Shown here: one piece after another, positions 25,305 to 62,340 of the stretch | How the letters are laid out: every line of letters begins with the position of its first letter | Position numbering within the stretch: the stretch's first letter is position 1 | Source of the DNA: Aquabacterium sp. NJ1 | Lineage (GTDB): Bacteria > Pseudomonadota > Gammaproteobacteria > Burkholderiales > Burkholderiaceae_C | DNA: 64,000 nt | Assembly (NCBI RefSeq): GCF_000768065.1 | Contig: NZ_JRKM01000001.1 | Coordinates: forward strand, 2,914,001 to 2,978,000 | Direction: 5' to 3' | Translations under genes and position numbers: made by a program | Notes under the pieces: generated by a model | Told to the model about the DNA's origin: nothing | Seen by the model: the letters and a program-made list of their open reading frames with translations, nothing else | Databases searched by the model: none

Positions 25305-25390
25305 GGAGGGGTGCCCGAGTGGCTAAAGGGGGCAGACTGTAAATCTGTTGGCTTACGCCTACGCTGGTTCGAATCCAGCCTCCTCCACCA
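25305..25390 (+). tRNA. tRNA-Tyr (GTA)
   Basis: A class II tRNA of 86 nt including the encoded CCA. Acceptor GGAGGGG pairs with CTCCTCC (one G-T pair); anticodon GTA lies in CTGTAAATC; the long variable arm typical of bacterial tRNA-Tyr and the T-loop GGTTCGAATCC are present. It is first in the tRNA-tuf transcript. Confidence 0.95.
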
Positions 25391-27046: not shown

Positions 27047-27122
27047 AGGGGTATAGCTCAATTGGCAGAGCGTCGGTCTCCAAAACCGAAGGTTGTAGGT
27101 TCGATTCCTACTGCCCCTGCCA
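27047..27122 (+). tRNA. tRNA-Trp (CCA)
   Basis: 76 nt with encoded CCA. Acceptor AGGGGTA pairs with TGCCCCT; anticodon CCA in CTCCAAA; T-loop GGTTCGATTCC. It lies 26 nt after tuf and before secE, the common proteobacterial position. Confidence 0.95.
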
Positions 27123-60878: not shown

Positions 60879-61037
60879 GTCAACGCGGGGGTGTCTGAAC
60901 TGAGCAGCATGCTAGCGAGCTGCGGCCGGCCAAGGTGTCACATACCGGACGATTGACGACGATTGGCCTGCGATTGCGTGTAAACGAGACTATCGGGCTG
61001 ATCAATCCAGATCAAGCCATGGCTCAGGCAACCGTGC

Positions 61038-61043
61038 TACATT
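61038..61043 (+). promoter_or_regulatory. Candidate -10 element of the DAHP synthase leader transcript
   Basis: TACATT in the context GTGCTACATT, ending 7 nt before the leader ATG at 61051. It resembles TGCTACACT before the trpE leader; both are preceded at 19-20 nt by CAAGC. A strong -35 is not evident. Confidence 0.45.
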
Positions 61044-61050
61044 AGCAATC

Positions 61051-61125
61051 ATGAATCGCGCTCGCTTTTACTTTTGGTACTTTTACTTCTCGCCCGTTAC
61101 CGGCGCAGGAGTGGCCAACGCATAA
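61051..61125 (+). CDS. Aromatic-rich leader peptide (24 residues) of the DAHP synthase attenuator
   Basis: A 25-codon ORF with RFYFWYFYFS at residues 5-14: four Phe, three Tyr and one Trp in eight consecutive codons, far beyond chance. It has no Shine-Dalgarno and a -10-like hexamer 7 nt upstream, so a leaderless mRNA is likely. The rest (PVTGAGVANA) overlaps the segment that can pair with the terminator arm. Low charged Phe- or Tyr-tRNA would stall the ribosome here and favour antitermination; both are end products that commonly inhibit DAHP synthases. Confidence 0.85.
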   Translation: MNRARFYFWYFYFSPVTGAGVANA

Positions 61126-61178
61126 GCGAACCACACCATATCCTGAAAACCGCCGGTCTAGCCCCGGCGGTTTTTTTT
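61099..61178 (+). promoter_or_regulatory. DAHP synthase attenuator: alternative antiterminator and terminator stems
   Basis: The terminator is CCGCCGG (61150-61156), TCTAGCC loop, CCGGCGG (61164-61170) and eight T residues (61171-61178). Its 5' arm, CGCCGGT (61151-61157), is also perfectly complementary to ACCGGCG (61099-61105) inside the leader ORF, so the two pairings exclude each other, as in classical attenuators. The stall codons end at 61089, ten nt before the antiterminator arm. DAHP synthase starts 43 nt after the T run. The rest of 60879-61221 is non-coding. Confidence 0.85.
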
Positions 61179-61221
61179 CGACTCCGACTTTCGTCCGCCC
61201 ATCGCATCAAGAGGAAGCCCC

Positions 61222-62340
61222 ATGAACGCCAAATCCAGTGCCGCAGAAGGCTGGGTACCCCCCGCCGACAAGACGTCGCAGACCGACGATCAACGCATCA
61301 AGAACGTCACGCCGCTGCCGCCGCCCGAGCACTTGATCCGCTTCTTCCCGATCCGTGGCACGCCGGTCGAGGCGCTGGTGGCGCACACCCGCAAGGCCAT
61401 TGGCAAGATCGTGCACGGCAAGGACGACCGCATGCTGGTCGTCATCGGCCCTTGCTCGATCCATGACCCGGCTGCCGCCGTCGAATACGCGAGCAAGCTG
61501 CGTGTGCTGCGCGAACAGTACGCCGACACGCTGGAAGTGGTCATGCGCGTGTACTTCGAGAAACCGCGCACGACCGTGGGCTGGAAGGGGCTGATCAACG
61601 ACCCGTACATGGACGAGAGCTTCAAGATCGACGAAGGCCTGCGCATGGCCCGTCATCTGCTGCTGGAGATCAACCGCCTGGGCGTGCCGGCCGCCAGCGA
61701 GTTCCTGGACGTGGTCTCGCCGCAGTACATCGGTGACCTGATCAGTTGGGGCGCCATTGGTGCGCGCACCACCGAGAGCCAGGTCCACCGCGAGCTGGCC
61801 TCGGGCTTGAGCGCCCCGATTGGTTTCAAGAACGGCACGGACGGCAACATCAAGATCGCCACCGACGCCATCCAGGCTGCGGCACGCCCGCACCACTTCC
61901 TGTCGGTTCACAAGAACGGCCAGGTGGCGATTGTCGAGACGGCCGGCAACCCCGATTGCCACGTGATCCTGCGTGGTGGCAAGGCCCCGAACTACGACGC
62001 GGACAGCGTGGCAGCGGCCTGCAAGGACCTGGAAGCGGCCAAGCTGCATCCTTCGCTGATGGTGGACTTCTCGCACGCCAACAGCTCCAAGCAGCACGAG
62101 CGCCAGGTGGTGGTGGCCAAGGACATCGCTGCGCAGGTGTCGGGCGGTTCGCACAAGGTGTTCGGCGTGATGGTGGAAAGCCACCTGTGCGCCGGTGCCC
62201 AGAAGTTCACGCCGGGCAAGGATGACCCGTCGAAGCTGGTCTATGGCCAGAGCATCACCGATGCCTGTATCGGTTGGGATGATTCTGCGGAAGTGCTGCA
62301 GATCCTGTCGGATGCCGTGAAGGCGCGTCGCGCGCGCTGA
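61222..62340 (+). CDS. aroG: 3-deoxy-7-phosphoheptulonate (DAHP) synthase, class I
   Basis: Condenses phosphoenolpyruvate and erythrose-4-phosphate, the first step of aromatic amino-acid synthesis. 372 residues: LVVIGPCSIHDPAAAVEYASKL, MRVYFEKPRTTVGWKGLINDP, RTTESQVHRELASGL, GFKNGTDGNIKIATDAI, VDFSHANSSKQHERQ and GVMVESHL cover the PEP, metal and phosphate sites of the AroFGH type. I cannot tell by eye whether Phe or Tyr inhibits it; the leader contains both plus Trp, so the symbol is a family-level choice. Good ribosome site GAGGAAG. Own terminator downstream. Confidence 0.93.
   Translation: MNAKSSAAEGWVPPADKTSQTDDQRIKNVTPLPPPEHLIRFFPIRGTPVEALVAHTRKAIGKIVHGKDDRMLVVIGPCSIHDPAAAVEYASKLRVLREQYADTLEVVMRVYFEKPRTTVGWKGLINDPYMDESFKIDEGLRMARHLLLEINRLGVPAASEFLDVVSPQYIGDLISWGAIGARTTESQVHRELASGLSAPIGFKNGTDGNIKIATDAIQAAARPHHFLSVHKNGQVAIVETAGNPDCHVILRGGKAPNYDADSVAAACKDLEAAKLHPSLMVDFSHANSSKQHERQVVVAKDIAAQVSGGSHKVFGVMVESHLCAGAQKFTPGKDDPSKLVYGQSITDACIGWDDSAEVLQILSDAVKARRAR

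Follow-up and report, generated by a model that had tools for sequence, protein, structure and literature searches.

What does a short, aromatic-rich open reading frame (ORF) do between a predicted promoter and a DAHP synthase gene in Aquabacterium sp. NJ1? In the stretch of DNA analysed here (64,000 nt, hereafter the window; all features of the locus lie on its forward strand), a leader peptide ORF of 24 codons (61051–61125, ATG at 61051 and stop codon TAA at 61123–61125) encodes MNRARFYFWYFYFSPVTGAGVANA and includes eight consecutive putative control codons, Phe-Tyr-Phe-Trp-Tyr-Phe-Tyr-Phe (61066–61089). The ORF is followed by an intrinsic terminator with a T-tract (61146–61178), in which the stem arms AAAACCGCCGG (61146–61156) and CCGGCGGTTTT (61164–61174) enclose a loop at 61157–61163, and the T-tract spans 61171–61178. 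A class I, AroG-like DAHP synthase gene (61222–62340) begins with an ATG at 61222, 43 nt after the terminator. Positions 61099–61105 of the leader (ACCGGCG) show perfect 7-bp complementarity to 61151–61157 (CGCCGGT) at the terminator 5' arm. An earlier reading of these letters without database searches (the sequence-only reading) had proposed from this arrangement that the DAHP synthase gene is under ribosome-mediated attenuation. The aromatic-run ORF, the terminator, the 43-nt spacing and the alternative pairing of the terminator arm with the leader are all borne out by the sequence, and the attenuation itself is supported by conservation of the leader, its codons and both stems, with covariation, across relatives. 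We consider it very probable that a ribosome-mediated transcription attenuator with up to three aromatic inputs controls this gene, the only DAHP synthase gene detected. Comparative evidence covers the leader, the aromatic codons, the terminator and antiterminator pairings, the promoter spacing and the linkage to DAHP synthase; from sequence we infer the start site, the stalling, the read-through and which amino acids act.

The identity of the downstream gene is clear. It matches the aroFGH model TIGR00034 with 534.5 bits (cut-off 173.2), and DAHP synthetase 1n8f is a solved relative (E 4.7e-141). It is the one class I match in this genome, where no match to class II DAHP synthase was found. 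A second DAHP_synth_1 match in the genome was rejected as a DAHP synthase, as it fell under the cut-off of the type I-beta model and corresponds to KDO8P synthase. That leaves the gene at 61222 as the sole DAHP synthase detected in the genome.

The aromatic ORF is not a chance product. In dinucleotide shuffles of the 300 nt upstream of the gene, at least seven aromatics within eight residues never arose (0 of 3000), and six arose twice (2 of 3000). Folding relative to shuffles gave z scores of −3.43 for the terminator, −2.62 for the antiterminator state (61088–61160) and −2.88 for the leader plus terminator, and a transcript ending before the terminator 3' arm (61051–61160) folded no better than shuffles (z −0.57). 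Simple scans of 60880–61260 reported neither a terminator nor a −35/−10 promoter; in our reading, A:T stem pairs consume part of the T-tract, and the promoter would be an extended −10 element lacking a −35.

To follow the leader beyond this genome, it was defined as at least four aromatics within eight residues, no more than 300 nt upstream of a DAHP synthase gene. Of the 210 upstream regions surveyed, 31 belong to the same genus; 74 further genera of the family, picked among the matches listed, contributed 75, and other families of the order 24, while the remaining 80 are named loci (the best 80 among the matches listed). The closest named relatives among the matches listed were a Comamonadaceae bacterium, with 91% identity, and Aquabacterium commune, with 87%. 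A leader was found in 184 of the 210 (31/31, 74/75, 7/24 and 72/80, respectively). These counts are not independent events, because the sets share lineages and, in part, organisms, and L232, which scores lowest, is a doubtful leader. Shuffles satisfied the same definition in 163 of 2090 cases and opposite strands in 15 of 209; a stricter one (at least six aromatics) was satisfied by 154 of 209 upstream regions versus 1 of 2090 shuffles and none of 209 opposite strands. L220, with too short an upstream region, was omitted from this comparison, and L003, a duplicate of the window, was dropped. A lack of conservation of the aromatic codons or of either stem in close relatives had been named beforehand as the outcome that would refute attenuation, and both codons and stems turned out to be kept far beyond the genus. 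No leader was found at 17 of the 24 loci from other families of the order, at 1 of the 75 loci from other genera of the family, or at 8 of the 80 named loci: four Polynucleobacter (L190, L199, L208 and L210), three Cupriavidus (L211, L213 and L223) and the short-upstream L220. Yet L186 and L193, also named Polynucleobacter, do have a leader. Its absence at the Polynucleobacter and Cupriavidus loci may reflect loss, a paralogue or a mislabelled assembly. Of the 184 leaders, 183 are followed by a terminator, and 176 of these remain once identical ones are removed. When 399 genomes of the order were searched for an exact DNA match to codons spelling FYFWYF, 24 genomes were found, with one place each, and DAHP synthase was present only at the window's own locus; as the remaining matches lack DAHP synthase, the exact peptide string is not diagnostic.

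The element as a whole was tracked with a covariance model (R1), which has one strong site in this genome (97.4 bits). The search for a second copy yielded the opposite strand of the same site (25.9) and further sites at 23.9 and less; none of these further sites is near a DAHP synthase gene, and they were taken as chance terminators. At E ≤ 0.01 the model matches 128 of the 399 genomes of the order; at E ≤ 3e-5 it matches 104, in 14 of 51 families and with 105 sites. At all 89 of these 105 sites that were examined (tblastn was used for the own locus and 85 others, coordinates for three; five of those 85 also belonged to the training alignment), DAHP synthase lies downstream. This linkage bears on another possibility, an independent gene for a small RNA or small protein that ends at the terminator, with DAHP synthase transcribed from its own promoter inside the 43-nt gap. 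The gap could house start signals, and termination would release a discrete RNA of ~128 nt. Against it stand the linkage to DAHP synthase in all 89 examined strong matches and the covariation of the alternative pairing with the terminator arm, and we regard this explanation as extremely unlikely. The promoter scan also reported no site in the gap, which weighs little because the same scan misses the proposed extended −10.

Weaker matches were discarded: four of four fetched loci with weak matches in the order (E 1.6e-4 to 7.6e-4) hold no DAHP synthase, nor does the locus of one match in the class at E 6.8e-5. Among 369 genomes of the class, five outside the order match at E ≤ 1e-4, and four of the five sites precede DAHP synthase (L332, L333 and L335 of family f63, and L334 of f68); the element also stands before DAHP synthase in a locus named Solimonas sp. 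(L229). These occurrences outside the order may stem from transfer or from common descent. Ten of the 11 other genomes of the family in the order-wide search have two DAHP synthase matches but one model match, suggesting that usually one paralogue is under attenuator control. None of six plasmid-borne DAHP synthase copies (five from Burkholderiales and one from Enterobacter; 6 of 476 matching records) matches the model. Three loci of family f44 (L319, L321 and L324) have model sites with a terminator before DAHP synthase, and their best ORF holds three or one aromatics in eight residues; these aromatic-poor elements may be decayed or may respond to another input.

Four RNA segments could form mutually exclusive pairings at the locus. 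In the minimum free energy structure, segment 1 (61084–61094) is able to pair with 61102–61105 and 61107–61113 as a protector hairpin (1:2). Segment 2 (61099–61110) pairs through ACCGGCG with segment 3, and its CAGGA may extend the pairing to 61141–61145; segment 3 with this extension (UCCUG ... CGCCGGU, 61141–61157) is the partner in the putative antiterminator (2:3), and the terminator represents 3:4. An alignment of upstream regions had been suggested in the sequence-only reading as the check for covariation. In an alignment of 83 leaders, the terminator stem is paired in 93.8% of cells (slid versions at most 67.9%) and the 2:3 pairing in 87.0% (slid versions at most 49.5%). The 2:3 pairing contains 20 doubly changed cells, compared with a shuffle mean of 6.6 and reached by none of 500 shuffles; 12 of the 20 fall in the outermost pair, which is unpaired in 30 cells, and eight in two inner pairs. 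Two of five covariation measures, pairs with double changes (3 vs 2.2) and pair types (9 vs 9.0), are not above shuffles. A CTGGCGG:CCGCCAG version of the helix occurs in 3 of the 83 sequences. A helix of at least 6 bp between the leader and the terminator 5' arm is present at 151 of 176 loci (23.3 expected). The terminator arm reads CCGTC at four of the 176 loci, all with GACG in the leader, and GGCG is combined with CCGCC at 167; mixed combinations are absent and five loci are unclassified. The four CCGTC/GACG loci may descend from one ancestral change. As judged from these alignments, the predicted 2:3 antiterminator, mutually exclusive with the terminator, covaries. For 1:2, the family stem UUCUC:GAGAG is paired in 93.7% of cells and has five doubly changed cells, whereas the mean of the shuffles is 92.6% and slid versions reach at most 75.2%; as modelled, this protector hairpin looks weak.

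A predicted extended −10 promoter element, TGCTACATT (61035–61043), lies 7 nt 5' of the leader AUG. The distance from TGNTANNNT to the leader start is 6, 7 or 8 nt in 22, 85 and 34 of the 176 loci, respectively, and any other single gap occurs at no more than five. A Shine-Dalgarno-like 4-mer precedes the leader start at 1 of the 176 loci. This spacing and the near-absence of Shine-Dalgarno sequences imply that transcription would start at or next to the leader AUG, and the leader is probably translated as a leaderless mRNA. There is a precedent in Sinorhizobium meliloti trpL, reported to have an attenuator RNA that begins at the ATG of the leader ORF, with both RNA and peptide also acting in trans; that leader, however, has Trp codons and trpE(G) as its target (PMC7298713).

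The attenuator would operate as follows. Transcription would begin at or beside the leader AUG, and ribosomes would load on the leaderless message. When any charged aromatic tRNA is short, the ribosome would stall on the Phe/Tyr/Trp block and leave segment 2 free, so that 2:3 could pair and RNA polymerase could read into the gene. When all charged aromatic tRNAs are plentiful, the ribosome would cover segment 2, 2:3 would be blocked, 3:4 would form and transcription would stop. If the leader is not translated, the 1:2 hairpin would favour termination, weakly. In a stall model with an assumed downstream ribosome footprint of 13 nt, the probability of 2:3 in the window RNA is 0.24 when ribosome-free and 0.85–0.97 when the A site holds any one of the eight aromatic codons; it falls to 0.0 at the codon after the block and beyond. 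It is also at least 0.95 at codons preceding the block, and the modelled contrast would hence arise mainly from the ribosome covering segment 2 once past the block. Across the 151 loci with a 6-bp 2:3 helix (25 loci without one were excluded), the mean probability rises from 0.42 to 0.98 at the best aromatic codon. A gain above 0.3 is seen at 94 of them and a gain of at most 0.05 at 36, presumably because 2:3 already dominates there without a ribosome, which again makes 1:2 look weak, in line with the z of −0.57 for 61051–61160.

Which amino acids could the leader sense? All 176 distinct leaders with a terminator contain Phe codons, 171 contain Tyr and 153 Trp; 149 contain all three and 27 lack one of them. 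Two groups can be distinguished within the family. Window-type leaders (29, chosen by a GAG(V/A/L) tail) correspond to 29 of the 31 same-genus loci and follow the order Phe-Tyr-Phe-Trp-(His/Tyr)-Phe, with Trp in 18 and at the window's position in 16. In the 140 leaders of the family outside this type, Trp is present in 130 and all three aromatics in 126. Most of these (122 of 140; 18 could not be anchored) were anchored on a TTCTC-like site, and the residues preceding the anchor are Tyr in 95, Phe in 119, Trp in 111 and Phe in 122, the last by virtue of the anchoring itself. The sequence-only reading had the leader sampling all three aromatic amino acids. Its codon part stands, with codons for all three in 149 of 176 leaders; a response to all three is extrapolated from the codons, and Trp is found in only 18 of 29 window-type leaders.

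The main rival to the three-input attenuator is accordingly the same attenuator effectively sensing Phe, or Phe and Tyr, with the Trp and perhaps the Tyr codons of minor weight. The universal presence of Phe codons, the lower counts for Tyr and Trp and the patchy Trp of window-type leaders fit it, as does the Corynebacterium glutamicum aroR leader, reported to respond to Phe and not to Tyr (PMC11802643). Against it, 111 of the 122 anchored leaders have Trp at one fixed position and 95 have Tyr two codons earlier, directly before segment 1. Moreover, six and five codons before the anchor, Tyr is the top alternative to Phe (56, compared with Ala 7, Ser 6 and Gly 5, among the six commonest residues), but seven codons before it Ala is as frequent as Tyr (23 and 22). 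On balance a Phe-centred input appears rather unlikely, and an attenuator with up to three inputs is preferred.

Conservation of the peptide itself raises a further alternative, a TnaC-like nascent-chain arrest peptide that senses a ligand via the peptide and not via codon-limited stalling. Much of the family shares the core YFWFS. Arrest peptides usually retain fixed residues, however, and the core varies by clade (window-type leaders have FYFWHF, and many other residue orders occur elsewhere), while the C-terminal half shifts frame: in the tail of the 140 family leaders, G[A/G]CGG lies in frame 0 in 115, in frame 2 in 18 and is absent from 7. Since the tail bases persist while the reading frame varies, the tail looks kept as RNA and the aromatic block as codons, and an arrest peptide is considered very unlikely. 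Codon-limited stalling remains the preferred reading of the aromatic block. Within the leaders, Phe codons are mostly TTT (180 TTT, 103 TTC), whereas the adjoining DAHP synthase genes mostly use TTC (123 TTT, 417 TTC; 64 loci among the named L155–L234); slow wobble decoding or low structure might explain this bias. In window-type leaders, GAGTG replaces GAGAG in 27 of 29 (cf. 61084–61113 in the window), the 1:2 stem is seemingly shifted by one register with a TAC-like codon where others have TGG, and the Trp codon, if kept, sits further upstream.

Attenuation by a leader ORF with 1:2, 2:3 and 3:4 pairings is known from the trp, pheA and ilv operons of enteric bacteria, the ilv type sampling several end products. 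Unlike these, the present element would control the first common step of its pathway and has no Shine-Dalgarno sequence. A comparative survey of proteobacterial attenuators reportedly appeared in 2004, and Neshat et al. (2014) are said to have described the aroR-aroF attenuator of C. glutamicum. The sequence-only reading, which saw control of DAHP synthase as best known from repressors and feedback inhibition and knew of no case with this mixed codon run, has to be corrected in that attenuation of DAHP synthase is not without precedent: besides aroR-aroF, there are a predicted upstream ORF (uORF) motif in Acholeplasma and a hypothesis for Escherichia coli aroF. At aroR-aroF, ribosome stalling is reported to raise transcription under Phe limitation (PMC11802643, PMC4046766). 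By description only, aroR resembles our leader in being a short aromatic leader (Phe-Tyr-Phe) before a DAHP synthase gene. It differs in being actinobacterial, with Phe and Tyr codons, no Trp codon mentioned in the text available and a response to Phe but not Tyr (PMC11802643, PMC4046766), whereas the leaders described here combine codons for Phe, Tyr and Trp and are conserved across many families within a single proteobacterial order. The uORFC-13-1 motif, predicted from 24 sequences of Acholeplasma and unknown organisms, resembles it in placing a uORF, with at least one Phe codon, and a terminator ahead of aroF (PMC8632094). Leader RNAs have also been predicted for Shewanella aroF and aroH, with aroF given as sensing Tyr-tRNA, and the E. 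coli aroF attenuator hypothesis is traced by two papers to a 1980 reference (one of them PMC2659441). In both, attenuation was proposed before DAHP synthase too, but in a different order and with no leader peptide of this kind shown in the text available (PMC2659441).

Among the matches listed in the openly licensed PMC literature, no description of this element was found. The Rfam search called for in the sequence-only reading likewise returned no family that fits: in Rfam 15 the element is under the gathering score of every family, the best being Leu_leader (61051–61177; 26.4 bits against 50, E 0.0012), a weak match that presumably reflects shared attenuator architecture. The attenuation principle is classic, and a member with a Phe/Tyr/Trp leader before DAHP synthase seems undescribed; the features that would set it apart are the three-aromatic codon input and the probable leaderless start.

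With no fitting family in Rfam 15, the predicted attenuator offers a basis for annotation. For a large order that includes Comamonadaceae and many more families, it also supplies a specific mechanism, open to experiment, by which entry to the aromatic pathway could be controlled at the level of transcription. With its probable leaderless start and three-amino-acid input, it would be a compact natural system for studying how a single stall block combines the charging signals of several tRNAs. In a far-reaching version, argued by analogy with S. meliloti trpL, the element would be an ancient, order-wide leaderless switch: transcriptional control of the pathway's entry would lie mainly in its reading of the charging of all three aromatic tRNAs, and the ~128-nt terminated RNA and the peptide would also act in trans; we think this improbable. 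In Ralstonia, aroG fusions are reported as rising 10–20 fold on deletion of the paralogue and, in deletion strains, falling 2–3 fold with added Phe (PMC6379268), for which an attenuator is a possible reading if those genes carry the leader. Within the window, the only Rfam matches at or above the gathering score are four tRNAs. The genes for tRNA-Tyr (25305–25390) and tRNA-Trp (27047–27122) lie in the same 64 kb as the putative attenuator, a proximity that is probably coincidental.
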